DNA of 64,000 nucleotides, taken from positions 124,001-188,000 of the forward strand of contig NZ_UCNW01000009.1 of assembly GCF_900474185.1 (NCBI RefSeq). Reading direction: 5' to 3'. Each line of letters opens with the position of its first letter. The stretch's first letter is position 1. The notes beneath the pieces were generated by a model. The model saw only the letters and a list, made by a program, of their open reading frames with translations, ran no database searches and was not told the origin of the DNA. Position numbers and translations under genes: made by a program. This stretch comes from Synechococcus sp. UW69. Lineage in GTDB: Bacteria; Cyanobacteriota; Cyanobacteriia; PCC-6307; Cyanobiaceae. Below, piece by piece: positions 31-16,272 of this stretch.

Positions 31-924
31 ATGGATCGCAACGCACTGATCGAGATTCTTCAGCGCGAAGGCAACCTGAAGCATTCCTTCAGCACCGATG
101 AGATCAAAAGCCTCGCTGAACATGTCTCGATCGAGGTGATCCAAGCAGAAACCATCTTGATGAAGAAGGGCGAACCCTCAGACAGCATGGTGTTCATCCT
201 GGATGGTCTTGTTCAAATCCTTGACGGCGAACGACAGCTCTCCATTGAACAAACAGGATCCATTATTGGAGAGAGCCTCTTTTCAGAGGAAGCAACGCGC
301 GTTGCAGACGTTCAAACCATTGAGCCAACAACCGTTGGTCGATTTTCAATACACGACTTCGAAAACTTCCTGGGCCAAAACCAGCCGCTGGCCCTGAAGT
401 ACCGAGAATACTTTCAAGCCATCAGGCGCGCACGAGCCGAGCAATTTGCTGCCGAAAACTATAGCGACAAGCGGAAATATTTAGCCCTGATTGCTCACAA
501 CAACATGAAAGAAAGTTTGATGGAATTTTGCGGAATACACACCAACAAATTAGAAACATTTTCACTGATTGCAACCGGCACGACAGGCAGCATTCTCTAT
601 AAGAAAACTGGGCTTTGCCTTAGCAAGAAAGTGGCATCAGGCCCCCTCGGTGGCGATCAGGCCGTCGGAACTCTGATTTCGACCCAGAACATCTGTGGCG
701 TGATCTTTTTCAGGGACCCACTCTCCTCACATCCCCACCATGCTGATATCGAGGCGCTGGGCCGCCTCTGCGACGTTTATCAGATCCCATTTGCCACCAA
801 TCCGCAGAGCGGCGAAGCCATTCTCGACTATCTCCTCTCAGGGAAAGCAGAACGCGAATTGATTCCCAACCAAGTACTTCAGGCCTATATTCAGGGTCAG
901 AAAAAAGTTGTTGAAGCGGGTTAA
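31..924 (+). CDS. Cyclic-nucleotide-binding domain fused to methylglyoxal synthase
   Basis: 297 aa in two parts. Residues about 15-130 form a cNMP-binding beta barrel, with a phosphate-cassette-like GES start (G80, E81) and R90. Residues about 148-270 align without gaps to methylglyoxal synthase (MgsA), which converts dihydroxyacetone phosphate to methylglyoxal plus phosphate. The E. coli residues H19, K23, D71, D91, H98 and D101 correspond to H156, K160, D209, D229, H236 and D239, and the ATGTTG and GPLGGDQ motifs are present, so the enzyme looks active. MgsA is normally a stand-alone protein of about 150 aa, so this is a fusion. It converges on an adenylate cyclase gene, which suggests cAMP control of the enzyme (inference). 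It is cytosolic, with no signal peptide. The ATG start lies only 30 bases from the window edge, so upstream context is unseen. Confidence 0.9.
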   Translation: MDRNALIEILQREGNLKHSFSTDEIKSLAEHVSIEVIQAETILMKKGEPSDSMVFILDGLVQILDGERQLSIEQTGSIIGESLFSEEATRVADVQTIEPTTVGRFSIHDFENFLGQNQPLALKYREYFQAIRRARAEQFAAENYSDKRKYLALIAHNNMKESLMEFCGIHTNKLETFSLIATGTTGSILYKKTGLCLSKKVASGPLGGDQAVGTLISTQNICGVIFFRDPLSSHPHHADIEALGRLCDVYQIPFATNPQSGEAILDYLLSGKAERELIPNQVLQAYIQGQKKVVEAG

Positions 925-949
925 AACCAAAACCACCCTTCTTTTAACC
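919..949. terminator. Possible bidirectional terminator hairpin
   Basis: GGTTAAAA at 919-926 and TTTTAACC at 942-949 form a perfect 8-base inverted repeat with a 15-base loop. It spans the stop codons of two convergent genes. There is no long T-run, so termination is an inference from position and symmetry. Confidence 0.35.
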
Positions 950-2716
950 AGAATCCGAATCAGACCGAAGCGCAAGCAAGCCAAAGACAGGGATGGGTTC
1001 AGGCCAACCTTTCACAGCATGGGACCCCAGATCCGCCACCACAACATCCTCCGCGATGAGATTCCTGACGTCTCCACTCATCAGGATTGGATAGTCAGGG
1101 AAGTGCCGTGTAAGGGATTCAAGCCGGCTGGCCAGATTCACCGGAGCTCCAATCACGGTGTACTCCAACCGGTGGCTCGACCCAAGATTGCCGGCGATCA
1201 CTTCACCGCAGTGAATACCAATTCCCTGGCGTAGCGGTGCCAAGCCCTCCTGATCGAGTTCTCGATTCAGAACCTCAAGGTTGGCCTGCATCCCCAGAGC
1301 AGCCCGCACAGCCGCCAGAGCCTCGGCACGATCGCCCCGATGCACGGGCACCCCAAATTCCGCCATCAGGGCATCGCCAATGAATTTGTCCAACAACCCC
1401 TGCTCCCGCAGCACCGGAGCTGCAATTGCCTCGAAATAGCGATTCAACAAGCCAAACAGGGCCTCCGCATCCATCACGTTGCTGCGGGCTGTGAATCCCA
1501 CCAAGTCGGTGAACAACACCACGCAGCGCTCGCGACGACCGCCAAGACGCGTCCAGCTCTCCTGCCCCGACCGCAGCATGTCGCGCATGAGATTCGGTGA
1601 CACCCTGCGCGACAGCACCGAGTGCAGAAATCTCCGTTGAGAGCTTTCCCGCTGGAATTGGTCTCCCGCCCGGAGACTTCCCCCGATCAACGGCATCAGC
1701 ATCAAAGCTGCGCCAGGCAACCAAAGGCCGTTGAACCAAGCCAAAACAACGCCCCCGGTTACCAGAGCCTCCAGAAGAGCGGTTGTGATCGCTGTGCCAA
1801 GGGCGGTCGATGGAGCTGCGATACGCCATTGACACAACAGCAACCAGAGGGCCATCAATGCCACCAAATGGGAGACATCAGGCGCGCGAAAGCCTCGTCC
1901 GCTTTGGAAGCCTGCAATGGCCGATAGCAAAACCTCAGAGCCGCTCTGCTGACCAAAAGGGGTCTCCAGCTGATCACCCAGCGAAGGGGCAGTGGAACCG
2001 ATGATGACGACCTTGTTCCGCCAGGTGTCTTGCGGAAGCGTGCCCACGGCCCAGGCGGGAATCACCGGTATGTGTCCGCTGGGTCCGAGGAAATCAATGC
2101 CGTTATCACCTTGTGATGAAGCAACCCCTGCAGCGAGAGGCGCTAAAGGGCGAGGGTGGGGCTCAGAAAAGTCATTGAGCATCCCCTTCAGGCTCTGCCG
2201 TCCCGGAACAGCCTGCACAACACCGAAGGCGTTCATCGAAAACGCCGACAGTCCCACGGGATAGCTCGTGTACCAGGGACGTCTCAGTTGAACCTGCTCG
2301 TGACCCTCCAGCTGCTGTCGCACCAGAGAGGCGCTCAACACCACCCGGTCTTGCCATGGTTGCAACGCGTGTTGGAAGGCAAGGTCGTCGGTTGGACCAA
2401 AACCGCTGGGCCCAACATGAACGATGTTGAAGACGACACGACGGGCACCCTGACGGAGAACCGCACGGGCCAGGTCTGCCTGCAGCGCACGCGGCCAGGG
2501 CCAGGAGCCGAAATCAGACAGCTGTGGATCCAGTGACGCCTCATCGATGCCCAACAGCACCACGTCATCGGGGGGCTCAATCGGGCCACGCCATTGAAAA
2601 AGGAGCTGCCGGCCCGTGGCGTCCAAACGCGACAGCAACGGGAGCATGGCCAGGGGCAACAGCAGCGATGCCCGCCACAGACACGGAACAAGATGCCGGC
2701 GGATCAAACGTCTCAA
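944..2716 (-). CDS. CHASE2-domain adenylate cyclase (class III)
   Basis: 590 aa membrane-bound nucleotide cyclase making cAMP from ATP. It has an N-terminal membrane helix (about 10-30), an extracytoplasmic CHASE2 sensor domain (about 45-275, with the typical VLLGIDE and VVIIGSTAP segments), two or three further helices (about 280-345), and a C-terminal class III catalytic domain from about 395. Metal ligands are D404 and D448, purine-specifying residues K444 and T520, and transition-state residues N527 and R531. The K and T pair and the spacing match cyanobacterial CyaC-type adenylate rather than guanylate cyclases. It overlaps the upstream FecR gene by four bases (ATGA), so the two are one transcription unit and probably one sensing device. 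Confidence 0.92.
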   Translation of the reverse strand: MRRLIRRHLVPCLWRASLLLPLAMLPLLSRLDATGRQLLFQWRGPIEPPDDVVLLGIDEASLDPQLSDFGSWPWPRALQADLARAVLRQGARRVVFNIVHVGPSGFGPTDDLAFQHALQPWQDRVVLSASLVRQQLEGHEQVQLRRPWYTSYPVGLSAFSMNAFGVVQAVPGRQSLKGMLNDFSEPHPRPLAPLAAGVASSQGDNGIDFLGPSGHIPVIPAWAVGTLPQDTWRNKVVIIGSTAPSLGDQLETPFGQQSGSEVLLSAIAGFQSGRGFRAPDVSHLVALMALWLLLCQWRIAAPSTALGTAITTALLEALVTGGVVLAWFNGLWLPGAALMLMPLIGGSLRAGDQFQRESSQRRFLHSVLSRRVSPNLMRDMLRSGQESWTRLGGRRERCVVLFTDLVGFTARSNVMDAEALFGLLNRYFEAIAAPVLREQGLLDKFIGDALMAEFGVPVHRGDRAEALAAVRAALGMQANLEVLNRELDQEGLAPLRQGIGIHCGEVIAGNLGSSHRLEYTVIGAPVNLASRLESLTRHFPDYPILMSGDVRNLIAEDVVVADLGSHAVKGWPEPIPVFGLLALRSDSDSG

Positions 2717-3525
2717 GGAGCTGGCGCCGAAACCCCCAGTTCCCGCTCGATGTCCGGCAAGGTCTCCAAGGGGGTTGAGAAACCGTTGATGAGAAGGCTC
2801 TTCTGAAGGCGACGTTCAGCATCCTGGGCAGACAGCGGCTGGGGGGGCTCCCAGTCGTACTCCTGCTGATCCTGTTGACGCGAACGAGGACTGCTGTAGC
2901 CATCTCGCCCAGGAGTCGGCGGCGTCACGATGCCGCCGCCCAACTCACCTAAAGCGGATTCCAAACCATCCAAGCGACCGCTGACCTCAACCATCTGACG
3001 TTTGAGATCCAAAAGCAGCTGCTGACCACTGTTCAAGGTGAAGCGTTGGCCATTGCTCGTCTCCACCCGAACCCTGCCTTCCCAGCTGAACACCTTGAAC
3101 TGCTTGTCGGTGAACTCCAAAAAAACGGTGGTGCCCTGAATCGAAGCCGTGGCCAACCGCGTTTTGATCGAGAAGGGACTGCGATGCGGAGTCCCTGGCT
3201 TAATCCAGCCGATGATGGAACCCTTCAACAGTTCGACGTCGGACGCACCCAAGCGCAACAGAGCATCACCCCCCATGCGGAACTGACGCCCGTTGCCCAA
3301 CATGACCTGCATGCGACCTGGCTTTGTGGTGCGTAGCAACGCATTTGTCTTCAACGACTGACCCGAGCGTGCAGTGATCTCAGTAGCGCCGGGCAGCTTG
3401 ACGAAGGCAGGCCCCGCCGGGACCTCAACAACACGAGGCTGAGCGGCACGGCTGGGCAGGGCCCAGAGGGCACTCCCGAGCAGCAGCAGCGCACCTGCCT
3501 GAACGAAAACTGCCTGTTTCAACAT
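2713..3525 (-). CDS. FecR-domain secreted protein, partner of the CHASE2 cyclase
   Basis: 270 aa. An N-terminal signal peptide or anchor (about 1-28, hydrophobic LLLLGSALWAL ending near SRAA) is followed by a FecR domain (about 50-150). This contains stretches typical of FecR beta-strand proteins, such as TTVFLEF and VFSWEGRVRVE. The C-terminal third is proline- and charge-rich. It is the first gene of a two-gene operon with the cyclase. FecR/CHASE2 pairing recurs in cyanobacteria, where FecR is thought to act on the periplasmic side; direct regulation of the cyclase is inference. The ATG at 3525 precedes the signal peptide directly. Confidence 0.85.
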   Translation of the reverse strand: MLKQAVFVQAGALLLLGSALWALPSRAAQPRVVEVPAGPAFVKLPGATEITARSGQSLKTNALLRTTKPGRMQVMLGNGRQFRMGGDALLRLGASDVELLKGSIIGWIKPGTPHRSPFSIKTRLATASIQGTTVFLEFTDKQFKVFSWEGRVRVETSNGQRFTLNSGQQLLLDLKRQMVEVSGRLDGLESALGELGGGIVTPPTPGRDGYSSPRSRQQDQQEYDWEPPQPLSAQDAERRLQKSLLINGFSTPLETLPDIERELGVSAPAP

Positions 3526-3662
3526 CTGTCATGCAGCAGTTTTTCAAGACTGGCAGCCGGACATGGATTACGCCACCAGCGAACCAAGACAACAACGACT
3601 TGACGTTGGTTGCAAAGTAAAAAATCTGTCGTCAGATTACGAGCACTGAGCGTCTTACACGC

Positions 3663-4982
3663 ATGGCATACGAGAACGTTCTGAAAAATCCTGATAACTT
3701 CAATTTCGAAATTCAACAGCTTGGGGAAGCAACTTATGCCAACCCCTGCAGCCAAGAGATTTTTGTTGACGACTCAGAGAAAATTATTTTTTCCAGTCAG
3801 ATCAAGAACCTGAATCATCAACTCGAAACATGCAAACAATTGCCGGCATTTGAGAAGGCCGGAGCCCGGGAAAGAATCTTTCACAATCTAGATACAACCC
3901 GCGCAGCAATTATCACCTGCGGTGGGCTATGTCCGGGGCTGAACAATGTGATCAAGGGACTGGTCAACGTATTGGAACAGGACTATGGCGTCAAAGAGAT
4001 TATTGGCATTCGCTATGGCTACAAAGGCCTGACGCAACAATCAAATCAAGAACCGATCCAGCTGAATTCATCTGTTGTTGAACAGATTCACAAACAGGGC
4101 GGGACCATTCTTGGATCGTCGAGAGGCAATCAGGATCCAGAAATCATGGTGGACGAGCTCCAGCGTAGAAAAATCAATCTCCTGTTCTGCATCGGCGGCG
4201 ATGGCACATTGAAGGGGGCTCAAGCAATCGCGGAAGCAGCCAATAAACGTCAAGCCAACATCAGCGTTGTCGGCGTGCCGAAAACCATCGACAACGATCT
4301 CGGTTTTGTTGAAAAAACCTTCGGCTTCGAAACCTCTGTCCAGGTAGCGTCGGAAATCATCACATCCGCCCACCACGAAGCAGAAGGGGCCGAAAACGGT
4401 ATTGGAATCGTGAAACTGATGGGTCGAGACTCTGGCTTTATTAGCGCTACAGCATCACTGGCCAATTCCATTGTGGATGTCTGCCTTATTCCCGAGACCC
4501 CGTTTCAAATCAGTGGGCCCGAAGGCATCTGTGCAGCAATTCAACGCAGACTTCAACAGAACAACCATGCTGTGATTGTTGTCGCAGAAGGGGCCGGGCA
4601 AGACCTTTTCAACAACAGCGAAAGCAGAGTCGACGCTTCCGGGAACATCCTCAAGGATGATATTGGAGAACTTCTTAAGAAGGAGATAACGGCATACTTC
4701 AAACAAAATAATCTCGCAATCAGCATCAAGTATCTGGATCCCAGCTATCACATCCGAAGTGTTTCAGCAAACGCAGCAGATGCAGTGTTTTGCTACCTAC
4801 TTGCGGAACATGCCGTGCATGCGGGTATGAGCGGAAAAACCAATCTTTTGATCGGCTACTGGAACAATTTCTTCACCCATGTCCCCATTCATCTGGCCAC
4901 AAAAGAACGGCGGATGGTTGACCTTGACAGCGCCCTATGGCGTGGCGTCATTAGCGCAACCCAGCAGGACAAACATCCATAA
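3663..4982 (+). CDS. 6-phosphofructokinase (ATP-type by signature)
   Basis: 439 aa, in the long plant/protist-like PfkA group rather than the 320 aa E. coli form. It phosphorylates fructose 6-phosphate. Seen: phosphate-binding CGGLCPGLN (86-94), GGDGT (178-182) and PKTIDND (206-212), and a GRDSGF segment. Glycine after GGD favours ATP as donor, since pyrophosphate enzymes usually have GGDD. The lysine in PKTIDND is shared with plant and trypanosomatid ATP enzymes. It is transcribed divergently from fecR-cyclase across a 137-base gap. Many marine picocyanobacteria are described as lacking phosphofructokinase, so its presence beside a methylglyoxal synthase and a cyclase is notable. Confidence 0.9.
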   Translation: MAYENVLKNPDNFNFEIQQLGEATYANPCSQEIFVDDSEKIIFSSQIKNLNHQLETCKQLPAFEKAGARERIFHNLDTTRAAIITCGGLCPGLNNVIKGLVNVLEQDYGVKEIIGIRYGYKGLTQQSNQEPIQLNSSVVEQIHKQGGTILGSSRGNQDPEIMVDELQRRKINLLFCIGGDGTLKGAQAIAEAANKRQANISVVGVPKTIDNDLGFVEKTFGFETSVQVASEIITSAHHEAEGAENGIGIVKLMGRDSGFISATASLANSIVDVCLIPETPFQISGPEGICAAIQRRLQQNNHAVIVVAEGAGQDLFNNSESRVDASGNILKDDIGELLKKEITAYFKQNNLAISIKYLDPSYHIRSVSANAADAVFCYLLAEHAVHAGMSGKTNLLIGYWNNFFTHVPIHLATKERRMVDLDSALWRGVISATQQDKHP

Positions 4983-5113
4983 TCAGCACGAACTCAAACT
5001 GAACCAACGAGCAGGGGGTGAATTGATTCGTCACCCAACTGGAACAAGATCAAAAAAGTTCCGGCCTTGACCTTGGGATCTCCCCACAATGAGTTTCGAC
5101 GGGTTGGTAGGTC

Positions 5114-6592
5114 ATGGTCTTGGCATTGCAATGGTTACTCACAGTTGTCGGCCTGTTCGCCGGATTGGTCGCCAAGCGCATCTGCCAACGGTTCAGCATG
5201 CCACCGTTCCCTTGGCGCACTCCTTGGATTGCTCTACTGGCGCACACCACCGAACAGACGATCGAAAGCTTCCGCATTCCGATCTCAGCGGGGCTTGATC
5301 TCAGCCTCATCACAGGCATCCTCGCTTCGATTGCCATAAGCCGGTGCCTGGTTTGGGTCGCTCTCGAAATCCTGCCAACACTCCGGATTTTGCCGTCCTG
5401 TCCAAAAATTCTGCGCGATCTGATTTTCATTGTCGGCAGTTTGTTCCTTATCGCTCTAAATCTGAAGGAGCAAGCCAGCATCGACCTGGTGGGCCTGGTG
5501 ACAACCTCAGCAGTTCTCACGGCTGTTGTTGGTTTAGCCGCCCAGGATCCACTGAAAGACCTCATCGGTGGCTTGAGCCTTCAACTCGAACAAGTGATCC
5601 GAGAAGGCGATTGGGTTGAAATTGATGGATACATTGGCCAAGTGCAATCAATCAGCTGGAGAGATACAGAAATCAACAGCCTTTATGGGTCAAGGCTGAT
5701 CTTTCCACATACGAATTCCAACTCCAGCACAATCCAAAATTTCACAAGCAATGGAGCCCATGCCAACAAGCTGATTATTGGACTGGATTACAGCATGCCG
5801 CCAGATATAGCCAAGAAAATAATGCAGAAGATCTCTGATAATCACTCGCTGGTTCTTCGATCACCAGCCAACATCATTCGAATCCGCTCATTCGAAGAGA
5901 GCTGCATCAACTACGAATGGATCAATTGGCACAAAGACTTCGGCCAAAGCCGTGCGCTCCGTGGTGACCTTCAAGAACAGCTTTGGTATGCGCTACAACG
6001 TGAAGGCTTCAGCTTCCCATTCAGCGTTCGTGATGTACGAATTACACAAAATGAGCAGCAACCAAAACCACTATCTTCCAGCAAAGACAACTTACTCAAA
6101 AGCATTCACAAACTCCTGAGAGACAACCAACTCTTTTCCATCCTTTCCGACAATCAGATTCAAAAGATGATTGAAATGAGCTCATTCTGCTCATACGGAC
6201 CCGGAGAAATTATCGTGAAAGAAAACGAAGACGGAGACTCACTCTTTATGCTAATCAATGGCAATATTTCTATCCAGAAACCATCAATTCCTCAGAACAA
6301 TGTCGAAATAGCTCAACTGCAATGTGGAGACATCTTTGGGGAAATGACTGTTTTTACCGGAACCACTCGCAGTGCAACAATTCAAAGCATCAGCAAAGTC
6401 GACCTGCTCGAGGTGAGTCGACAAGCCATCGCCGAACTCATCGATGAAGAGCCAGGCCTGATTGAGCGCTTTGGCCAATTGATCAGCGATCGGCAAGCTC
6501 AACTGGCCCAACTCGCCATTCAATCGGTCCCAGCCAACAGTCGAGACGTGGTGGGGCGCATGAAAGAACTCTTCCAAAGCCTGCTCTCGTAG
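5114..6592 (+). CDS. MscS-type mechanosensitive channel with C-terminal cNMP-binding domain
   Basis: 492 aa. It has about four hydrophobic segments (1-20, 35-50, 62-90, 100-120), then the pore-lining helix and MscS beta domain (about 125-215, with glycine/alanine-rich VVGLAAQDPLKDLIGG), a mixed C-terminal vestibule, and a cNMP-binding domain (about 340-470). The phosphate-binding cassette is canonical: GDIFGEM with E410 and RSAT with R419, better conserved than in the methylglyoxal synthase fusion. Such cyclic-nucleotide-gated MscS-like (bCNG) channels are a known family. It lies 131 bases after pfk and shares the locus with an adenylate cyclase, so cAMP is the likely ligand (inference). The ATG at 5114 is the first start in frame that includes the first helix. 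Confidence 0.9.
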   Translation: MVLALQWLLTVVGLFAGLVAKRICQRFSMPPFPWRTPWIALLAHTTEQTIESFRIPISAGLDLSLITGILASIAISRCLVWVALEILPTLRILPSCPKILRDLIFIVGSLFLIALNLKEQASIDLVGLVTTSAVLTAVVGLAAQDPLKDLIGGLSLQLEQVIREGDWVEIDGYIGQVQSISWRDTEINSLYGSRLIFPHTNSNSSTIQNFTSNGAHANKLIIGLDYSMPPDIAKKIMQKISDNHSLVLRSPANIIRIRSFEESCINYEWINWHKDFGQSRALRGDLQEQLWYALQREGFSFPFSVRDVRITQNEQQPKPLSSSKDNLLKSIHKLLRDNQLFSILSDNQIQKMIEMSSFCSYGPGEIIVKENEDGDSLFMLINGNISIQKPSIPQNNVEIAQLQCGDIFGEMTVFTGTTRSATIQSISKVDLLEVSRQAIAELIDEEPGLIERFGQLISDRQAQLAQLAIQSVPANSRDVVGRMKELFQSLLS

Positions 6593-6607: not shown

Positions 6608-9277
6608 TCATACGGCGCCAAGTGCCGCAGCCAGTTCAGCTTGAGCTGCCTCAAGAGCACCAGGCAAGGCGGCACCATCGCGACCACCGGCCTGCGCCAG
6701 ATTCGGGCGGCCACCACCGCCGCCGCCGCAGCGCTTGGCGATGGCACCGATGAACTTGCCGGCCTGGAGCTTGGCGCCGATCACCTGCTGGCCGAAGGCC
6801 GCCACCAGGATCACCTTGCCCAGATCGGCGGGATCCGGCAGACCACCGATCACCACCGCCGCGCAGTCCCCCAGCTGATCCACCAGGCTCTGGGCCGCTC
6901 CCTGCAAACCGGCGCCATCGACCCCGTCGAGGCGTTCCACCAGCAGCTGAAAGTCGCCCACGGCCTCGGCCTTGGCGGCCAAAGCACCGGCCTTGGCCAC
7001 CGCCAGTTCCGCCTGTGCCGCCGCCAGCGCCTTACCGGTGGCCTTGAGCTCATCCTGAAGAGCCGCAACACGATCAACGATCTCGGCAGGCTGCGCCTTG
7101 AAGCGTTCCCCCAGCTGCTTCACCACCGCATCGCGCTCATTTAGATATGCGAGCACAGCGGGGCCAGCGACGGCTTCAATCCGGCGAATGCCGGCAGCGA
7201 CGCCGCTTTCCGCCACGATCTTGAACAGACCGATTTCTGCGGTGTTGGCCACGTGGGTGCCGCCGCAGAGCTCCATCGACACACCGGGAACATCAACGAC
7301 GCGCACCACATCGGCGTACTTCTCCCCGAACATCGCCACAGCGCCGGCCGCTTTGGCCTGATCAATCGCCATCTCCTGCACGTCAAGCCCGTGGGCTTCG
7401 GCAATCCAAGCGTTGATCAATGCTTCGATCTGCACCAGCTGCTCCGCCGTCACCGCGTTAGGGGAGTGGAAGTCGAAGCGCAGTCGATCGAAATCCACCA
7501 AGGAACCGGCCTGGCCGATCCCCGGATCCACCACCTGCTTGAGCGCAGCCTGGAGAAGGTGGGTGGCGGTGTGATTCGCCTGAGCCCGGCGCCGGCAGGC
7601 ACGATCCACCTGCGCCTTAACGGTCTCACCCAAGGAGAGCTCACCGCGTTCCACACGACCGGCATGCACGAACACATCACGACTACGGCTCACGGAATCA
7701 ATCCGCACGATCAGGTCCGTGCCGGCCAACAGCCCGCGATCGCCCACCTGGCCACCGCCTTCTCCATAGAAGGGTGTGGTGTCGAGCACCACCTGAACCG
7801 CATCGCCAGCCTTCGCGGTGGTAGCCGGTTCGCCGTTCACCACAAGCGCCTGGACGCAGGAGGGGTGGTCGAGAGCCACATACCCCTGGAAGCAGGTCGC
7901 CGCCTGATCGGCCACCACCTGATCGATCGCATCCTGAAGCGTGAGATCGATGCTCACCGCAGCGGCCTTGGCCCGCTGACGCTGCTGCTCCATCGCCGCC
8001 TCGAAGCCATCGAGATCGACGGCTAAGCCCTGCTCCTCAGCAATTTCCTGGGTGAGCTCCAGAGGGAAGCCATAGGTGTCATAAAGCTCAAAGGCCTGGG
8101 CACCGCTGATCTGCGTTGGCTTGGACGCCAGCACCTCCGCCAGCAGCTTCTCACCGCGCTCCAAGGTCTCGAGGAAACGAGCCTCCTCCCGTTGGAGTTC
8201 GGCCAGAATCACCTCCTGCCGCTCAATCACGCTGGGGTGGGCCCCCTTCAGCAAGGCAATCGCCGCTTCCCCCATGGTGAGCAAGAAGGGCTTGTCGATG
8301 CCCAGGAGGCGACCATGACGCACCACCCGGCGCAACAGCCGCCGCAGGATGTAGCCGCGGCCGAGGTTGCTGGCGGTGACGCCATCACAGATCAGCTGCG
8401 TCACAGCACGGCTGTGATCGCCGATCACTTTCAACGACGTCTTGCCCTTATCGTCGAGCTGGTGGTAGTCGACCCCTGCCAGCTCCGCGGCCGCCTGGAT
8501 CAACGGAAAGATCAGGTCAGTTTCGTAGTTGTTGGGGACCTTCTGCAGGATCTGAGCCATCCGCTCCAGACCCATGCCGGTGTCGATGTTGCGATTGGCC
8601 AGCGGCGTGAGCGTGCCCTCAGCGTCGCGGTTGTACTGCATGAACACCAAGTTGTAGAACTCGATGAAGCGGTCGTCGTCCTCCAGATCGATGCCCTCAT
8701 CACCCAGCTCAGGCGAGAAGTCGTAATAGATCTCCGAGCAGGGACCACAGGGCCCAGTCGGCCCCGAAGCCCAGAAGTTGTCGGCCTCGTCCATGCGGAT
8801 AATCCGCTTGGGGTTCACCCCCACCACATCGCGCCAGATCTGCTCGGCTTCATCGTCTTCACGGAAGACACTCACCACCAGATTTTTGGGGTCGATGCCA
8901 TATACAACAGTGCTGAGCTCCCAGGCCCACTCAATCGCCTGCTGCTTGAAGTAATCCCCAAAGGAGAAGTTGCCGAGCATCTCGAAAAAGGTGTGATGCC
9001 GGGCGGTGCGCCCCACGTTCTCGATGTCATTGGTGCGAATGCACTTCTGAGAACTGGTAGCCCGGGGAGCCGGCCTCTCCTGCTGGCCGAGAAAGACCGG
9101 CTTAAAGGGCAGCATTCCCGCAATGGTGAGCAACACCGTTGGATCGTCGGGAATCAACGAAGCGCTGGCCATCCGCTTGTGGCCGCGCTCGGCGTAGAAA
9201 TTCAGGAAAGCCTCACGGATCTCCTCACCGCTGCGCGGTGCAGACGCTGCAGAAGACGACGATGCGGCGGCGACCAT
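6608..9277 (-). CDS. alaS: Alanyl-tRNA synthetase
   Basis: 889 aa from the start chosen here. Class II synthetase charging tRNA-Ala. The catalytic domain begins at REAFLNFYAERGH. The editing domain carries the zinc-binding HTATH and CGGTH motifs, and a C-terminal oligomerisation domain ends in a glycine-rich segment. The frame stays open to 9409. The ATG at 9277 fits the family N-terminus best and avoids deep overlap with the divergent gene starting at 9303. It ends 15 bases from the convergent MscS gene. Confidence 0.96.
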   Translation of the reverse strand: MVAAASSSSAASAPRSGEEIREAFLNFYAERGHKRMASASLIPDDPTVLLTIAGMLPFKPVFLGQQERPAPRATSSQKCIRTNDIENVGRTARHHTFFEMLGNFSFGDYFKQQAIEWAWELSTVVYGIDPKNLVVSVFREDDEAEQIWRDVVGVNPKRIIRMDEADNFWASGPTGPCGPCSEIYYDFSPELGDEGIDLEDDDRFIEFYNLVFMQYNRDAEGTLTPLANRNIDTGMGLERMAQILQKVPNNYETDLIFPLIQAAAELAGVDYHQLDDKGKTSLKVIGDHSRAVTQLICDGVTASNLGRGYILRRLLRRVVRHGRLLGIDKPFLLTMGEAAIALLKGAHPSVIERQEVILAELQREEARFLETLERGEKLLAEVLASKPTQISGAQAFELYDTYGFPLELTQEIAEEQGLAVDLDGFEAAMEQQRQRAKAAAVSIDLTLQDAIDQVVADQAATCFQGYVALDHPSCVQALVVNGEPATTAKAGDAVQVVLDTTPFYGEGGGQVGDRGLLAGTDLIVRIDSVSRSRDVFVHAGRVERGELSLGETVKAQVDRACRRRAQANHTATHLLQAALKQVVDPGIGQAGSLVDFDRLRFDFHSPNAVTAEQLVQIEALINAWIAEAHGLDVQEMAIDQAKAAGAVAMFGEKYADVVRVVDVPGVSMELCGGTHVANTAEIGLFKIVAESGVAAGIRRIEAVAGPAVLAYLNERDAVVKQLGERFKAQPAEIVDRVAALQDELKATGKALAAAQAELAVAKAGALAAKAEAVGDFQLLVERLDGVDGAGLQGAAQSLVDQLGDCAAVVIGGLPDPADLGKVILVAAFGQQVIGAKLQAGKFIGAIAKRCGGGGGGRPNLAQAGGRDGAALPGALEAAQAELAAALGAV

Positions 9278-9302
9278 GACAGGAAGGGGGGATCCTGCCG
9301 TC

Positions 9303-9719
9303 ATGATCGCCTTTGAACCGCCGGCGCCCGTGGCCGTTCCTCCCAGTGATCCTGAGATTCGCCAGCGATTGAGACTGCAGTCGATCGGCTGGGCTCTAAT
9401 TGCCGGCATCAGCGCAGGGCTGATCAGCCTGCCCTGGGGCTTGGAAGCAGCCGTGCGTTCTGGCGGTTGCGGTCTGTTCTACGGACTACTGGCCTTCCAC
9501 CTGCAGCGGGTGGACCCCGATGACGGGCATCTTCAAGCGGGTCTGGTGGGGGCGGTCTGCGGGCTGCGCAGCCTCGGCATGCCGCTACCCCTTGACAACT
9601 GGCAGGTCGATGGCCTGGCATCATTAGTACTGGAGCTTTTTCTGGCCTGGCTGCCGTTGATCGGCAGTGCTCTCCTGCTCCAAGGCATCCTCCGCTTCCT
9701 GCCCGCGTCGCGGCCATGA
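9303..9719 (+). CDS. Small hydrophobic protein of unknown function
   Basis: 138 aa, not recognised. At least three membrane-like segments are visible (about 35-55, 62-76 and 105-128), with a charged loop around DPDDG. An upstream ATG at 9276 would add nine residues but overlaps the alaS start, so the ATG at 9303 is preferred. Its stop overlaps the start of the SNF2 helicase gene by four bases (ATGA), so it is probably translated from the same message. Function cannot be inferred. Confidence 0.6.
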   Translation: MIAFEPPAPVAVPPSDPEIRQRLRLQSIGWALIAGISAGLISLPWGLEAAVRSGGCGLFYGLLAFHLQRVDPDDGHLQAGLVGAVCGLRSLGMPLPLDNWQVDGLASLVLELFLAWLPLIGSALLLQGILRFLPASRP

Positions 9720-12700
9720 GCCTGCTGCACGCCACCTGGCTTCCCGCCATCCGTACCTCAAGCAGTTCCGGCCAACCGGCACTGCTCGTTTGGGCTGACA
9801 CCTGGCGGGTGGCCACACCGGAAGGGCCAGGCCTCACCCCGGCGCTGCATCCCTTCACCCTCAGCCACGACGACCTCAAGGCCTGGCTCAGCGAACGCGA
9901 CCTTCTGCCCGGCGGCAGCATCGATGCCACGGCTTGTCTCACCCTGCCAAGCCGCACGGTGAAGCCGCGCAAAAGCCGAAGCAAAGCAGCGGATCCAGCG
10001 CCAGAGCCACCGGGCTGGACCGGACTGCCGATGCAAGCCGGCGAACCGATCCCCAAACAAACGGAATGGTGGCCTTGGCAGGTGCAGGGGCTTGCCGTGG
10101 AACCCTCAGCAGCCACAGAGTGGCTGTCCCGCTTGCCGCTGTCGGGGACCAACCCGGACCTGGCCGATGAATTGCGCTGGTGGAGCCATCTGCAGCGCTG
10201 GGCCCTGAGTCTGGTGGCCCGTGGCCGCTGGATGCCCCAGATGGAACTGAGCAAAGGGGAGGGCTACCCCCATCGGGCCCGTTGGGTGCCGCTGCTTAAC
10301 CGAGAAGAAGATCGACGTCGGCTGGAGGATCTGGCAGCCAGCCTTCCCCTAGTGGCCACCTGTGCCTTGCCCTGGCGCGAACCGCTGGGGCGCCGCAGCA
10401 ACCGCACGACCCGGTTGCGGCCAGAGGCGATGCGGGCCGCCAATCCCGTCGCCAGCTGCAGGCCCCGCAGCGGTCGCCTGCGGGTGGCGACCCTGCTGGA
10501 AGATCTGGTGGACGCCCAGCTGCGCAAGGACTTCGAGCCCTCCAGTGATGGCCTTGATCCCCTGCTGACGCTCTGGCAGGAGGCCCTGGGATCAGAGACC
10601 GGGGTGATCGAGATCGGTGATGAGGAGGCCGAACGACTGGCCAGCGCAAGCCATCACTGGCGGGAAGGCATCGCCGGCGGATTCGCCGCGGCCCGGACCT
10701 GCCTGGAACTGCACACCCCACCGGATGGGGAGGATCTCTGGGAACTGCGCTTCGGACTGCAGGCGGAAGCCGACCCAAGCCTGAAGCTCCCGGCCGCCGC
10801 AGCCTGGGCCTCCGGCGCCGAAATGCTCCAACTGGGTGAGATCCAGGTGGACCAGCCCGGCGAAGTGCTACTGGAGGGCCTCGGGCGGGCCCTGACGGTG
10901 TTCCCACCGATCGAACGGGGGCTGGAAAGCGCCACGCCAGACACGATGCAACTCACACCGGCCGAAGCCTTCGTGCTGGTGCGCACCGCAGCTCGGCAAC
11001 TGCGGGACGCCGGTGTGGGCGTGGACCTACCCCCGAGCCTCTCCGGTGGACTAGCCAGCCGACTGGGACTGGCGATTAAGGCTGAACTACCGGAGCGGTC
11101 GCGGGGCTTCACCCTCGGTGAGTGTCTGGATTGGGAGTGGGATCTGATGATCGGTGGGGTGACGCTCACCCTGCGAGAACTGGAGCGACTCAGCGGCAAG
11201 CGCAGCCCCCTAGTGCGCCACAAGGGGGCCTGGATCGAACTGCGTCCGAACGACCTCAAGAACGCCGAACGCTTCTGTGGCGCCAAAGCAGAACTGAGCC
11301 TCGACGACGCGCTGCGGTTGACGGGAACGGAAGGGGAGCTGCTGATGCGGATGCCGGTGCACCGCTTCGATGCAGGCCCACGGCTGCAGTCGGTGCTGGA
11401 GCAATATCACCAGCAAAAAGCCCCCGACCCACTGCCGGCCCCAGAGGGATTCTGCGGCCAGTTGCGGCCTTATCAGGAGCGGGGCCTGGGCTGGCTCGCC
11501 TTCCTGCATCGGTTTGACCAAGGGGCCTGCTTGGCCGATGACATGGGCTTGGGCAAAACAATCCAGTTGCTGGCGTTTCTGCAGCACCTCAAGGCGGAGC
11601 AGGAATTGAAGCGCCCGGTGCTGTTGGTGGCACCCACCTCAGTGCTCACCAACTGGCGAAGGGAAGCGGAAGCCTTCACCCCCGAGTTGGCGGTCACCGA
11701 GCACTACGGCCCGCGTCGTCCCTCCACACCGGCCGACCTGAAGAAAGCCTTGAAGGAGGTGGACTTGTTACTCACCAGCTACGGACTGCTGCAACGCGAC
11801 AGCGAACTGCTGGAAACCCAGGACTGGCAGGGGGTCGTGATTGATGAAGCCCAGGCGATCAAGAACCCCGGCGCCAAGCAGAGCCAAGCAGCCCGGGATC
11901 TGGCCCGCCCCGGCCGAAGCAAAAGCAACCGCTTCCGCATCGCCCTGACCGGCACCCCAGTGGAAAACCGCGTCAGCGAACTGTGGGCGTTGATGGACTT
12001 CCTCAACCCCAAGGTGCTGGGGGAGGAGGACTTCTTCCGCCAGCGCTACCGGATGCCGATCGAGCGTTACGGCGACATGTCGTCTCTGCGCGACCTCAAG
12101 GGGCGGGTCGGACCATTCATCCTGCGCCGGCTCAAGACCGACAAAACGATCATCTCGGACCTTCCCGAAAAGGTGGAGCTGAGCGAATGGGTGGGGCTGA
12201 GCAAAGAGCAAAAATCCCTGTACAGCAAAACCGTGGAAGACACGCTTGATGCCATTGCACGTGCTCCGCGCGGGAAGCGCCACGGCCAAGTGCTGGCCCT
12301 GCTCACCCGGCTAAAACAGATCTGCAACCATCCCGCCCTTGCCCTGAGCGAAGGGGCTGTAGACGATGGCTTCCTCGGCCGCTCCGCCAAGTTGCAGCGG
12401 CTAGAGGAGATCCTTGACGAGGTGATCGAAGCGGGCGACCGGGCTTTGCTGTTCACCCAGTTCGCCGAATGGGGGCATCTGTTGCAGGCCTGGATGCAAC
12501 AGCGCTGGAAGGCGGAGGTGCCCTTCCTGCACGGCGGCACCCGCAAGAGCGAACGTCAGGCGATGGTGGATCGCTTCCAGGAGGATCCCCGCGGTCCGCA
12601 GCTGTTCTTGCTCTCGCTCAAGGCCGGTGGTGTGGGCCTCAACCTCACCCGGGCCAGCCACGTGTTCCACATCGATCGCTGGTGGAACCCGGCCGTGGAA

Positions 12701-12913
12701 AACCAAGCCACCGACCGGGCCTACCGAATCGGCCAGACCAATCGGGTGATGGTGCATAAATTCATCACCAGCGGCTCGGTGGAAGAAAAAATCGATCGCA
12801 TGATCCGGGAGAAATCACGCCTAGCGGAGGATGTGATCGGCTCCGGGGAGGATTGGCTCGGCAGCCTCGGTGGCGATCAATTGCGTGATCTCGTTTCCTT
12901 GGAGGACACCTGA
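9716..12913 (+). CDS. SNF2-family DNA-dependent ATPase/helicase
   Basis: 1065 aa. The N-terminal 550 residues are of the kind associated with bacterial SNF2 proteins. The motor follows: Walker A MGLGKT, a Walker B variant VVIDEAQ, ALTGTPVENR (motif III), then helicase-C with GGVGLNL and QATDRAYRIGQ. It is a double-stranded nucleic-acid translocase related to HepA/RapA and Rad54-type proteins. It is followed two bases later by a SWIM zinc-finger gene, a pairing seen across bacteria and probably reflecting a shared complex. It overlaps the membrane-protein gene upstream. Confidence 0.93.
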   Translation: MSLLHATWLPAIRTSSSSGQPALLVWADTWRVATPEGPGLTPALHPFTLSHDDLKAWLSERDLLPGGSIDATACLTLPSRTVKPRKSRSKAADPAPEPPGWTGLPMQAGEPIPKQTEWWPWQVQGLAVEPSAATEWLSRLPLSGTNPDLADELRWWSHLQRWALSLVARGRWMPQMELSKGEGYPHRARWVPLLNREEDRRRLEDLAASLPLVATCALPWREPLGRRSNRTTRLRPEAMRAANPVASCRPRSGRLRVATLLEDLVDAQLRKDFEPSSDGLDPLLTLWQEALGSETGVIEIGDEEAERLASASHHWREGIAGGFAAARTCLELHTPPDGEDLWELRFGLQAEADPSLKLPAAAAWASGAEMLQLGEIQVDQPGEVLLEGLGRALTVFPPIERGLESATPDTMQLTPAEAFVLVRTAARQLRDAGVGVDLPPSLSGGLASRLGLAIKAELPERSRGFTLGECLDWEWDLMIGGVTLTLRELERLSGKRSPLVRHKGAWIELRPNDLKNAERFCGAKAELSLDDALRLTGTEGELLMRMPVHRFDAGPRLQSVLEQYHQQKAPDPLPAPEGFCGQLRPYQERGLGWLAFLHRFDQGACLADDMGLGKTIQLLAFLQHLKAEQELKRPVLLVAPTSVLTNWRREAEAFTPELAVTEHYGPRRPSTPADLKKALKEVDLLLTSYGLLQRDSELLETQDWQGVVIDEAQAIKNPGAKQSQAARDLARPGRSKSNRFRIALTGTPVENRVSELWALMDFLNPKVLGEEDFFRQRYRMPIERYGDMSSLRDLKGRVGPFILRRLKTDKTIISDLPEKVELSEWVGLSKEQKSLYSKTVEDTLDAIARAPRGKRHGQVLALLTRLKQICNHPALALSEGAVDDGFLGRSAKLQRLEEILDEVIEAGDRALLFTQFAEWGHLLQAWMQQRWKAEVPFLHGGTRKSERQAMVDRFQEDPRGPQLFLLSLKAGGVGLNLTRASHVFHIDRWWNPAVENQATDRAYRIGQTNRVMVHKFITSGSVEEKIDRMIREKSRLAEDVIGSGEDWLGSLGGDQLRDLVSLEDT

Positions 12914-12915
12914 CC

Positions 12916-13803
12916 ATGACCCTCAGCAACAACAGCACCAACGGCAGCACCGCCATCGGAGACGACGGCCTGGGCCAACAGCCCTGGTGGGTGGAGCAAT
13001 GGATGGAGCTGATCAACGGTTACCGGTTCAAGAAGCGGTTGGAACGGGCCTGGGGCTATGCCCGGGAAGGCCATGTGACGTCGATCCGCTTCGAAGGCCG
13101 CCGGGTCCATGCCCGGGTCCAAGGCACCGATGAAGCGCCTTACAAAGTGAAGCTCTGGCTGGATGTGCTGAACGATGAAGATTGGGGCTATGTCATGGAA
13201 GCCCTGACCCAAAAAGCCCGCTGGTCGGCCCAACTCCTGGCGGGGATCATGCCCTCAGACATCGAACGGGCCTTCGCCGCCAGCGGCAAACGCCTGTTCC
13301 CGTTCAAGCTGCAGGAGGTGCGCAGCGAGTGCAGCTGCCCGGATAAAGCCAACCCCTGCAAACACATCAGCGCGGTGTATTTCCTGATGGGGGACCGCTT
13401 CAGTGAAGACCCCTTCGTGTTATTCCAACTGCGGGGCCGCACCCGAGCTCGGCTACTGGAGGACCTGGCGGAACACCGGCGCAAGGCCCTGGCTGAGCGG
13501 GCGGAGGCGGCCAAGGAAGCGGGCATTACCAACATCCCTGACGATGCCACCCCCCTGCCGCCCCATCCAGCAGTGCAGGATCCCGCCCTGTGGTGGCGCT
13601 ACAACCGCAACCTCGATGGCGACCTGGTGGTGATCACCCCGGCGATGGATGGAGACACCGGCCTGGATGCCGCCGGAGAGCTGCCACTGGCGGAAGACCC
13701 GCGTTTCGCCGATGCCCGAAGCACCTTCCTCAGCAACCTCAAGGCCCACGGCCAGGCCAGTGCCCAGAAGGCGATGCTGCAGGCCATGGCGGCCGGCAGC
13801 TGA
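12916..13803 (+). CDS. SWIM zinc-finger protein
   Basis: 295 aa. The SWIM motif C-x-C-xn-C-x-H is at about residues 138-152 (CSCPDKANPCKH), a zinc-binding module predicted to bind DNA or protein. The region before it has WWVEQW and a repetitive beta-rich segment common to SWIM partners of SNF2 ATPases. The C-terminal part is charged, then acidic. It starts two bases after the SNF2 stop, so the two are almost certainly co-translated. The SWIM protein probably targets or modulates the motor (inference). Confidence 0.88.
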   Translation: MTLSNNSTNGSTAIGDDGLGQQPWWVEQWMELINGYRFKKRLERAWGYAREGHVTSIRFEGRRVHARVQGTDEAPYKVKLWLDVLNDEDWGYVMEALTQKARWSAQLLAGIMPSDIERAFAASGKRLFPFKLQEVRSECSCPDKANPCKHISAVYFLMGDRFSEDPFVLFQLRGRTRARLLEDLAEHRRKALAERAEAAKEAGITNIPDDATPLPPHPAVQDPALWWRYNRNLDGDLVVITPAMDGDTGLDAAGELPLAEDPRFADARSTFLSNLKAHGQASAQKAMLQAMAAGS

Positions 13804-13827
13804 AGCGACGTGGAGGGGCCTGGAGCC

Positions 13828-14307
13828 ATGGCCTGCGAAGCCGCCTGGCTCACCTCCGAAAAACAAGGGCTCGCCGGGGTGCTGCTGCAATCCCATCAAC
13901 GGGCCTTCGGCCGGCCACTGATCGCCGCCGCCCAACCGGGCCGCTCCAGGCGCCTGCTGTGCCAGGAACTGTTCGCCTGCGGTTTTCCGGTGCTGGCCCA
14001 CGGCACCGGAAACGATCCAAGGCTCAGTTACGCCAATGCGGCTGCGCTGCAGCTCTGGGAGACCAGCTGGCATGAGCTGATCGGCCTGCCCTCACGGCTC
14101 ACCGCACCGGAAACCGAACGGGCAGAACGCAGCAACGCCCTGGGCCAGGCCAAACGTCTGGACGCAGTTGAGAACTATCAAGGCATTCGGATCAGCCGAA
14201 AAGGGCAGCAGTTCATGCTCAACAACGCCCGTATCTGGACGCTCTGGGATGCAGAAGAGCGGGTGTGCGGCCAGGCGGCCTGCTTCAGCGACTGGTGGTG
14301 GCTTTAG
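13828..14307 (+). CDS. MEKHLA-domain protein
   Basis: 159 aa consisting almost entirely of a PAS-like MEKHLA domain. Seen: HGTGNDPRLSYANAAALQLWE, a segment typical of the family, and the LIGLPSRLTAPE region. MEKHLA domains occur in plant HD-ZIP III regulators and as stand-alone proteins in cyanobacteria and proteobacteria, with proposed sensing roles. A GTG at 13810 would add six residues; the ATG at 13828 is preferred. It follows the SWIM gene by 24 bases and may be the last gene of that operon. Confidence 0.8.
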   Translation: MACEAAWLTSEKQGLAGVLLQSHQRAFGRPLIAAAQPGRSRRLLCQELFACGFPVLAHGTGNDPRLSYANAAALQLWETSWHELIGLPSRLTAPETERAERSNALGQAKRLDAVENYQGIRISRKGQQFMLNNARIWTLWDAEERVCGQAACFSDWWWL

Positions 14308-14473
14308 GGAGATTCGGTTTCAACACCATCCCTGTCGTGCCAGCCGAACCTGGTGGTAGAGACCGAATCAAAACGGGCGGTTCTCACACTTCTAGTTCTC
14401 ATCCAAGCGGCGCAGATTGTGTTGGCGGGCAATCAACCAAGTCCGCAGATGTTCATTCTTCAGAGCAACCATC

Positions 14474-14866
14474 ATGCTGACCCTCCGCCAATCACCCTTC
14501 GATCTGTTCGAGCGTCTCGAGCAGCAACTTGCGACCGCAGAGCGCGTCCCCAACGCCGAAATCCATGAGACTGAATCCAGCTACAACGTGCGGCTGGAAC
14601 TGCCTGGCGTGGACCGCGACTCCATCGACATCAAGGCCACCGATCGCAATCTGGTGATCAACGCAGAACGCACAGCCGCAACCGGCGATGACAACAATGA
14701 ACCTCTGCTGAGCGAATTCCGCTGCGGCACCTGGAGCCGCAGCTTCCGCTTCCCCCACAGCCTTGATCGCGACCAGCTCAAAGCCAGCTACCGCGACGGC
14801 ATTCTTGAAATCAACGCCGGCAAAGCTGTTGAACACACCAGCGTTTCGGTGAAGATCGAGAACTGA
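14474..14866 (+). CDS. Hsp20 small heat shock protein
   Basis: 130 aa alpha-crystallin-type chaperone that holds unfolding proteins. Seen: ELPGVDRDSIDI at the start of the crystallin fold, a central FRFPHSL strand, and YRDGILEI, the conserved A-x-x-x-G-x-L-type region. The frame is open from 14417, but the ATG at 14474 gives the usual short N-terminus. About 165 bases of leader separate it from the preceding gene, room for its own promoter. A strong terminator follows at 14932-14957. Confidence 0.93.
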   Translation: MLTLRQSPFDLFERLEQQLATAERVPNAEIHETESSYNVRLELPGVDRDSIDIKATDRNLVINAERTAATGDDNNEPLLSEFRCGTWSRSFRFPHSLDRDQLKASYRDGILEINAGKAVEHTSVSVKIEN

Positions 14867-14931
14867 ACAGCCATCGCACTAAACAGCATTGAGCTGAAGC
14901 AGCTCATCCCCACACCGAGGAACGGAAGCTC

Positions 14932-14957
14932 AACCCCTGCCCATGGCAGGGGTTTTT
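14932..14957 (+). terminator. Rho-independent terminator after hsp20
   Basis: The sequence AACCCCTGCC-AT-GGCAGGGGTT forms a near-perfect GC-rich hairpin (14932-14953) followed by TTTTTT. It can also serve the convergent transporter gene that ends at 14977. Confidence 0.85.
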
Positions 14958-14976
14958 TGATGGAACCGCATTCGGG

Positions 14977-16272
14977 TTAGCCCCCAAGGCCGAAGAAAAA
15001 GCGGCCGATGAACAACAGGCTGAATCCGCTGAAAAACACCAAACCAAACCAGCAAAACGCCTGGGTGAGCCGCCCATAACGGTGTGCAAGCGGAACCAAA
15101 GGACTGTTGATCGTGTCCATCGCCATCCAGGCGAACAGGGGCGCCGTGAGGAAACTGCCGGTCATCGCCCCGAACACGAAATCCTTCACCCCAATACCGC
15201 CGGTCTTGGCCACCACCAACGCCAGCACAGCCGCCAGAAAATGCACGATGACCCAGATATCGAAGCGACGCTGCATGGGCCCCGGTGCCGAGTCACCACT
15301 GTCGTGATGGCGCAGCAAGCCCTGAATCGCCGCAATGCTTCGGGGGTAGGCATCAAGACAGGTGAGGGTGGTGCTGAACATGGCGAAAAAGGCCGCCGGA
15401 ATGATCACCCAAGCCGCCCAACCGCCCATGGCGGCCGTATAGAGCTTGATCAGCTTCTGAGCGAAGGAAACACCACTGCCAGCGAGCATTCCATCACCGC
15501 TGCCGTACATCGTGAAGGCGCCAAGGATCACGAAGAACATCGCCGTCACCACCGTGACGCCATAGCCGAGGTTGAAATCAAATTCCGCTTCCTTCGGCGT
15601 TGCGGTGTGGTCGGTATCCCGGGCACGGGAGAACATCCACAAGGATGGCCACACGCACATCTCCACCGGACCGGGCATCCAGCCCATCAAGGGAATCAAA
15701 AAGGCCAGGTTGGCAAGGGTCCAGGGACTGGGATCCGTGCTGACCCAACTCGCTGCCACATCACCGACGGGGCCGCGAATCAACAGTGATGCGGCCGCGA
15801 TCCCTGTGAGCAAGGTGAGCAGCACCACCAGCAGCTTGGAGAGACGGTCCAAAGCGCGGTAGTGCCCCAACAGCAGCACCAGGCCACTCACCGCCAACAC
15901 GGCGATCGACAGTCCATAGGGGTCCAATCCCGCCAGCAGGGGGATGTTGGTGAGCAGCAGCCCCGCAACAAAACTCACTGCAGCGATGGTGAAGGTGCCT
16001 GTCACCAGGCTCACCACCAAATACAGCGGGAGGTAGAGCGGATTGCGTTGCTGGAAGCCCTCCAGCAACGACAGTCCGGTGGCCGCCGTGAAGCGGGTGC
16101 CCACCCGCAGGAACGGGTATTTGATCAGATTGGTAAGCAGGATCAGTCCCACCAGCGCAAAGCCGAAACGGGCCCCCGCCGTGGTGGAAGACATCAAGTG
16201 GGATCCACCAATGCAGGCACCTGCCAACAGGATCCCGGGACCAATGCTGCGTCGCAGCGTCGATGACGCCAT
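14977..16272 (-). CDS. Nramp-related divalent metal transporter, divergent subfamily
   Basis: 431 aa from the ATG at 16272. About eleven membrane helices are visible. It begins SIGPG like Nramp proteins, but the helix 1 metal motif DPGN is replaced by IGGSHL and the helix 6 MPH motif by GWMPGPVE. This matches a separate bacterial Nramp-like subfamily with a conserved SHL in helix 1, whose substrate is not established; classical Mn or Fe specificity should not be assumed. The frame is open to 16488, and an ATG at 16356 would share its CATG with the divergent flv3 start. The shorter start leaves 82 bases for promoters. Confidence 0.85.
   Translation of the reverse strand: MASSTLRRSIGPGILLAGACIGGSHLMSSTTAGARFGFALVGLILLTNLIKYPFLRVGTRFTAATGLSLLEGFQQRNPLYLPLYLVVSLVTGTFTIAAVSFVAGLLLTNIPLLAGLDPYGLSIAVLAVSGLVLLLGHYRALDRLSKLLVVLLTLLTGIAAASLLIRGPVGDVAASWVSTDPSPWTLANLAFLIPLMGWMPGPVEMCVWPSLWMFSRARDTDHTATPKEAEFDFNLGYGVTVVTAMFFVILGAFTMYGSGDGMLAGSGVSFAQKLIKLYTAAMGGWAAWVIIPAAFFAMFSTTLTCLDAYPRSIAAIQGLLRHHDSGDSAPGPMQRRFDIWVIVHFLAAVLALVVAKTGGIGVKDFVFGAMTGSFLTAPLFAWMAMDTINSPLVPLAHRYGRLTQAFCWFGLVFFSGFSLLFIGRFFFGLGG

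Follow-up and report, generated by a model that had tools for sequence, protein, structure and literature searches.

A 64,000-nucleotide stretch of the genome of Synechococcus sp. UW69 (G000 here; contig NZ_UCNW01000009.1, positions 124,001 to 188,000), hereafter the window, carries five adjacent genes near its left end, among them one predicted source of cyclic AMP (cAMP) and two predicted cAMP sensors. An earlier note on this DNA had proposed that cAMP ties these five genes into one circuit for glycolytic overflow and solute release. All five are present exactly where it had placed them, as judged by open reading frame (ORF) matches, and the Pfam domains for cyclic-nucleotide binding (cNMP) plus methylglyoxal synthase (MGS), CHASE2 plus Guanylate_cyc, FecR, phosphofructokinase (PFK), and MS_channel plus cNMP all score above their gathering thresholds. 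The genes and the borders of the island in which they lie are as follows.

31-924, plus strand: cNMP-methylglyoxal synthase fusion (MgsA); ORF match, Pfam and NCBIfam
944-2716, minus strand: CHASE2 membrane adenylate cyclase with a class IIIb signature; ORF match, Pfam CHASE2 and Guanylate_cyc
2713-3525, minus strand: FecR-domain protein, upstream of the cyclase; ORF match, PF04773 (35.3 bits)
3526-3662, no strand: divergent intergenic region separating FecR-cyclase from PFK; scan for CRP-like sites negative
3663-4982, plus strand: phosphofructokinase of the PRK06830 / trypanosomal-type group; ORF match, NCBIfam and structure matches
5114-6592, plus strand: MscS-type channel with a C-terminal cNMP domain, similar to bacterial cyclic-nucleotide-gated (bCNG) channels; PF00924 (50 bits), PF00027 (63.2 bits)
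6608-9409, minus strand: alaS, the conserved right border of the island, from mapping of relatives' loci
Upstream of the window: speA-ndk-thiO-gatB, the left border of the island
G000:C9, about 119.6-120.3 kb (L053, about 8500-9190): third canonical, stand-alone cNMP ORF, between gatB and thiO

The cyclase retains precisely the K444 and T520 adenylate signature that had been read from its sequence, and the metal-binding residues Asp404 and Asp448 and the transition-state residues Asn527 and Arg531 are all in place, as expected for a class III (IIIb) enzyme. It was aligned to CyaB and CyaC structures, and its nearest solved relative is the class IIIb cyclase CyaB of Pseudomonas aeruginosa (3r5g). 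The FecR stop codon overlaps the cyclase start codon by 4 bp (TTGA), and the FecR protein is probably a periplasmic partner of the CHASE2 sensor. This is the only class III cyclase in the 2.37 Mb genome, by a census of class III enzymes that did not extend to other cyclase classes or to the PII-like protein SbtB. In other cyanobacteria the cyclases Cya1 and CyaB1 are responsive to CO2/bicarbonate, and cAMP serves there as a marker of high inorganic carbon (PMC10117731). By analogy, the class IIIb signature makes inorganic carbon a plausible input signal for the cyclase of the window.

The MscS channel was described from the outset as carrying a canonical cNMP cassette, and this holds: its pocket comprises FGE at 408-410 and R419 (FGE...TTRSATI). 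The protein displays the structural hallmarks of bCNG channels, namely an MscS beta domain and a C-terminal cNMP domain bearing the Glu and Arg of the phosphate cassette. An AlphaFold model of the channel computed from the single sequence has a confidence score (pLDDT) of 36, which is too low for use.

Likewise, the proposed cNMP-domain methylglyoxal synthase has both of its domains. The N-terminal cNMP domain (amino acids ~36-117; PF00027, 52.6 bits) has the expected fold and a Glu/Arg pocket made up of GE 80-81 and R90 (IGE...ATRVADV), and this part of the structure model is confident and matches the cyclic-nucleotide domains of PKG, HCN, CNG and CRP proteins. The C-terminal MGS domain (amino acids ~149-280; PF02142, 45.2 bits) is poorly modeled from a shallow alignment. 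Its H156, K160, D209, D229, H236 and D239 are present, and the alignment to solved MGS enzymes confirms that D209, D229, D239, H236, K160 and T182-T185 are kept; the catalytic residues presumably correspond to Asp D71, D91 and D101, plus His98, in the E. coli enzyme. MgsA exceeds the equivalog cut-off of NCBIfam PRK05234 (142.7 versus 84 bits) and falls below that of TIGR00160 (141.3 versus 146.9 bits), the latter being an annotation threshold and not a biochemical criterion. The same fusion also occurs in one Opitutia and three Trichodesmium metagenome-assembled genomes (MAGs; L110 9986-10888, L111, L112 and L113), where no cyclase was recognized nearby by similarity to the island cyclases. 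In three Synechococcus loci (L048, L049 and L047, from G012, G044 and G015) the gene is split by a frameshift, twice near codons 81-86 within the cNMP pocket and once where the two domains join (codon ~143-149); these shifts may reflect decay, sequencing error or programmed frameshifting.

PFK has no cNMP domain and is the sole PF00365 protein of this genome. It clears the NCBIfam PRK06830 equivalog cut-off for ATP-dependent PFK (611.6 versus 400), with the phosphoryl donor being a prediction, and matches structures 2hig/6qu3 (E 1e-102). The enzyme has no ortholog among those of other cyanobacteria (best match ~41% over part of its length), and thus was probably acquired horizontally. Among 34 genomes of the genus, any PF00365 protein is found in only four, which led us to reject PFK as an obligatory core member. 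Of the seven copies seen, all but one are island genes: those of G000, G008, L103 and L107, one that is broken (G041) and one reduced to a remnant (G302). The seventh, in G022, resides elsewhere, near 6-phosphogluconate dehydrogenase-like and glgC-like genes. Marine Synechococcus have been stated in print to lack phosphofructokinase, a statement that the island enzyme breaks.

When all nine cNMP domains of the genome are aligned to E. coli CRP, the Glu and Arg of the cAMP pocket are both kept in three: the MscS channel, MgsA and the stand-alone ORF between gatB and thiO. The pair is lost from NtcA and from the five other domains. The stand-alone ORF, which lies ~4 kb upstream of the window and occupies the same place in G008, is possibly a third cAMP effector. 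These three domains and the cyclase all fall within ~11 kb, in the island, and this clustering of the sole class III cyclase with every Glu/Arg-positive cNMP domain is more than chance. None of the nine domains belongs to a CRP-type regulator whose pocket is intact, and so cAMP in this organism probably acts directly on proteins. A scan of the window for CRP-like sites returned fewer matches than expected by chance and none in the divergent intergenic region, and sigma-70 promoters and terminators show no excess over expectation.

To examine relatives, the 34 genus genomes were searched with each of the five proteins, and the loci were fetched and mapped. The island occupies one chromosomal place, gatB-thiO-ndk-speA-alaS. 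In ten island-less genomes nothing recognizable separates speA from alaS, which overlap or are adjacent in nearly all cases, with a longer gap in G007. Most other genomes carry one or two CHASE2 cyclases there, drawn from no fewer than three sequence types, and with them, in variable gene order, cNMP proteins (MscS-cNMP, MgsA-cNMP, CRP-type or stand-alone), FecR proteins and DUF3307, plus PFK in some cases. The expectation that the five genes would stay together was only partly upheld: the full layout is rare, being intact in two of the 34 genomes (G000 and G008) and survives as a deletion scar in a third (G003). Other combinations include MgsA-cyclase-FecR-PFK without MscS in AG-673-A03 (L103); a different cyclase and a different MscS-cNMP together with MgsA in G011, G012, G015 and G043; and, in G039, MgsA with CRP, a FecR-like protein and a cyclase of a third type. 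The order in L107 is cyclase-MscS-speA-PFK-ndk-MgsA. This contig belongs to a MAG named Crocinitomicaceae (NAT165), and its gatB (95%) and ndk (85%) are picocyanobacterial; we rejected the occurrence of cNMP-MgsA in Crocinitomicaceae and regard misbinning as probable. Near this site, more distant family members (L129, L130 and L132) also retain MgsA along with cyclase and FecR proteins.

Further evidence comes from co-occurrence, shared loss and selection. First, MgsA-cNMP or MscS-cNMP is found in 14 of 19 cyclase-bearing genomes and in none of 15 genomes lacking the cyclase (Fisher 1e-5), or in seven of nine versus none of ten when only near-complete genomes are counted (p 7e-4), with p-values that are not tree-corrected for these related genomes. 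For these counts, a frameshifted MgsA scored as present if its genome bore the cyclase, and the broken copy of G003 scored as absent; that copy is the only MgsA-cNMP found in a genome without the cyclase. The presence of the cyclase changes at least five times on the alaS tree. Second, G003 (L055 9150-10263) carries a frameshifted MgsA, then a junction at which the final codons of the cyclase run directly into those of MscS, and then alaS. The simplest reading of this scar is that one deletion took both cyclase and channel, and that the leftover MgsA effector then decayed. Third, the ratios of nonsynonymous to synonymous substitution (dN/dS) relative to G008 are 0.07-0.11 for all five genes (MgsA, 0.07), revealing purifying selection and indicating that all five are functional in the type represented by G000, G008, G039 and AG-673-A03.

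From the anatomy of the locus, its conserved residues, the shared site, co-occurrence, shared loss and purifying selection, we lean toward the view that this locus is one form of a modular cAMP-signaling island inserted between speA and alaS of picocyanobacteria, in which cAMP would be read directly by effectors. The genetic linkage is well supported, and the biochemistry is predicted. The proposal that cAMP unites the genes thus stands for the cyclase and the cNMP effectors, which form a linked set that is clustered at one site and gained and lost together, and only in part for a five-gene unit. The arrangement suggests that, beyond gene regulation, a metabolic enzyme and a channel are direct targets of cAMP. 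The likeliest trigger of the FecR/CHASE2-controlled class IIIb cyclase is a signal that is extracytoplasmic or comes from inorganic carbon; the cyclase would then generate cAMP to be sensed by the cNMP-gated MscS channel, the cNMP-MGS fusion and the stand-alone cNMP protein, with no CRP-type transcription factor taking part in this genome. On firing of the cyclase, the channel would alter ion or solute efflux and MgsA would alter the diversion of dihydroxyacetone phosphate into methylglyoxal. PFK would be an optional, horizontally acquired addition that supplies a glycolytic step missing from the genus, upstream of the MgsA substrate. We entertain, tentatively and with more doubt than belief, the bolder idea of a complete, transcription-factor-free cAMP circuit in which a single extracytoplasmically controlled cyclase would gate a channel and allosterically switch an MGS, such that production of a toxic metabolite is timed with ion efflux, and in which the acquired PFK would re-open glycolysis.

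Several observations weigh against such a modular island with direct effectors. The convergent and divergent orientations of the five genes preclude a single operon, the genome counts are phylogenetically non-independent, and PFK is optional, which, like the pocket changes and frameshifts described next, speaks against a uniform circuit. Seven genomes (G011, G043, G020, G023, G165, G302 and G006) have His, Gln or Ser in place of the pocket Arg of MgsA, and so direct cAMP control cannot be assumed for every MgsA; the case for a cAMP-responsive enzyme is strongest in the G000/G008/G039/AG-673-A03 type. Frameshifts interrupt MgsA in G003, G012, G015 and G044, and in G006, G020, G022, G023, G044 and G165 the gene lies outside the island. 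The island also carries two-partner-secretion and surface proteins, CHAT and DUF3307. Cyclic AMP as the ligand, direct regulation and the input signal are predictions, and activation as the direction of control is a guess.

Some of these same observations are what would be expected if speA-alaS were simply an insertion hotspot, with cyclase and cNMP genes traveling on the same mobile segments, the cNMP domain of MgsA being a non-binding relic, and only the cyclase-channel (and CRP) pair being at work. The other cargo, the many MgsA pockets without Arg, the frameshifted genes and the dispensability of PFK and MgsA all fit this explanation, and the unrelated cargo and the MgsA genes outside the island mean that part of the co-location is indeed a hotspot effect. 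However, MgsA of the window keeps both Glu and Arg under a dN/dS of 0.07, the fusion is absent from cyclase-less genomes save for the broken G003 copy, and it recurs with Glu and Arg in L107, L110 and L111. As a full account, we judge hitch-hiking to be rather unlikely.

The original proposal, wherein PFK, MgsA and the channel constitute one cAMP-switched pathway for glycolytic overflow and solute release, gains from the position of the genome's sole PFK between cyclase and channel and from the proximity of PFK to cyclase and MgsA in AG-673-A03, G008 and L107. Yet most genomes with cyclase, channel and MgsA have no PFK, which is thus unneeded for the core, the enzyme itself lacks a cNMP domain, and the G022 copy is located elsewhere. 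What survives of that proposal is the genetic linkage of the cyclase and the cNMP effectors; a single five-gene circuit is improbable given that PFK occurs in only four of 34 genomes. Finally, an anti-phage system resembling Pycsar, in which infection would trigger a cyclic nucleotide and the channel and methylglyoxal synthase would kill or arrest the cell, is highly improbable and membership was rejected: despite a patchy island in which effectors are shuffled, matches in PADLOC to the profiles of PycC and PycTIR and a PycTIR cNMP domain among the fold matches of the MgsA model, these matches reflect generic cyclase/cNMP homology, the adenine-specifying K/T pair is kept, no TIR domain was found by Pfam, the CHASE2/FecR front end suggests a signal from outside the cytoplasm, and the cargo comprises surface proteins and not known defense genes.

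Other features of the site were noted in passing. A family of ~220 amino acids without a Pfam match (L054 5627-6286, with equivalents in 11 other loci) is encoded antisense to the second cyclase type and overlaps the 3' end of that cyclase gene by ~45 bases. Beside gatB in G213 (L130 2924-7084) are five successive 226-amino-acid ORFs with an identical N-terminus and a spacing of 870 bp, a period above the limit of the tandem-repeat finder. Near speA in G021 (L119 ~10580-15766), translations judged by eye include Nif11-like leader peptides and a radical-SAM-like gene, possibly a peptide-product cluster.

The components of the modular island can each be compared with known systems. The cyclase shares its catalytic domain and Lys/Thr adenine pair with the class IIIb enzymes Arthrospira CyaC, Anabaena CyaB1, Synechocystis Cya1 and P. 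aeruginosa CyaB, and differs from them by its CHASE2 membrane sensor and coupled FecR partner. The MGS proteins of other cyanobacteria have ~440 amino acids and no matching cNMP domain. Synechocystis Sll0036 has an MGS domain with conserved catalytic residues like that of MgsA, but there it is fused to an NADK-like domain (PMC11897720) in place of the N-terminal cNMP domain. We found no published description of a cNMP-MGS fusion in a search that left out most of the subscription literature. The channel resembles bCNG channels, which, as cited in PMC4560390, combine an MscS pore, a beta domain and a C-terminal cNMP domain (Caldwell et al. 2010, doi 10.1016/j.bbamem.2010.06.001); compared with that description, the channel of the window sits beside its own cyclase in an island that is gained and lost, and its gating by cAMP is putative.

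A similar arrangement has been published as Syn_GI122, a genomic-island module of marine Synechococcus whose adenylate cyclases have CRP or an MscS channel regulated by cAMP nearby (Dore et al. 2020, PMC7522525). The module description matches the island in having a cyclase adjoining CRP or cNMP-MscS, in its CHAT and surface proteins and in its occurrence across lineages, whereas the main text of that paper makes no mention of methylglyoxal (synthase) or phosphofructokinase. Pycsar systems (PycC, PycTIR) likewise pair a cyclase with cNMP-domain effectors in patchy islands; in contrast, the island has an adenine signature, a metabolic-enzyme effector and an extracytoplasmic sensor, and no TIR effector. 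To our knowledge, few cyanobacterial cAMP effectors are known besides CRP and SbtB. If our interpretation is correct, then a cyclic-nucleotide-controlled MGS would represent a new kind of metabolic cAMP target, as far as the literature searched shows, and the natural variants with filled, partial, scarred or empty sites make the idea directly testable in strains. In E. coli, methylglyoxal adducts open the KefB and KefC channels, and the island, in which methylglyoxal production would be paired with ion efflux, resembles this system; the complete circuit considered above would be its cAMP-driven counterpart.
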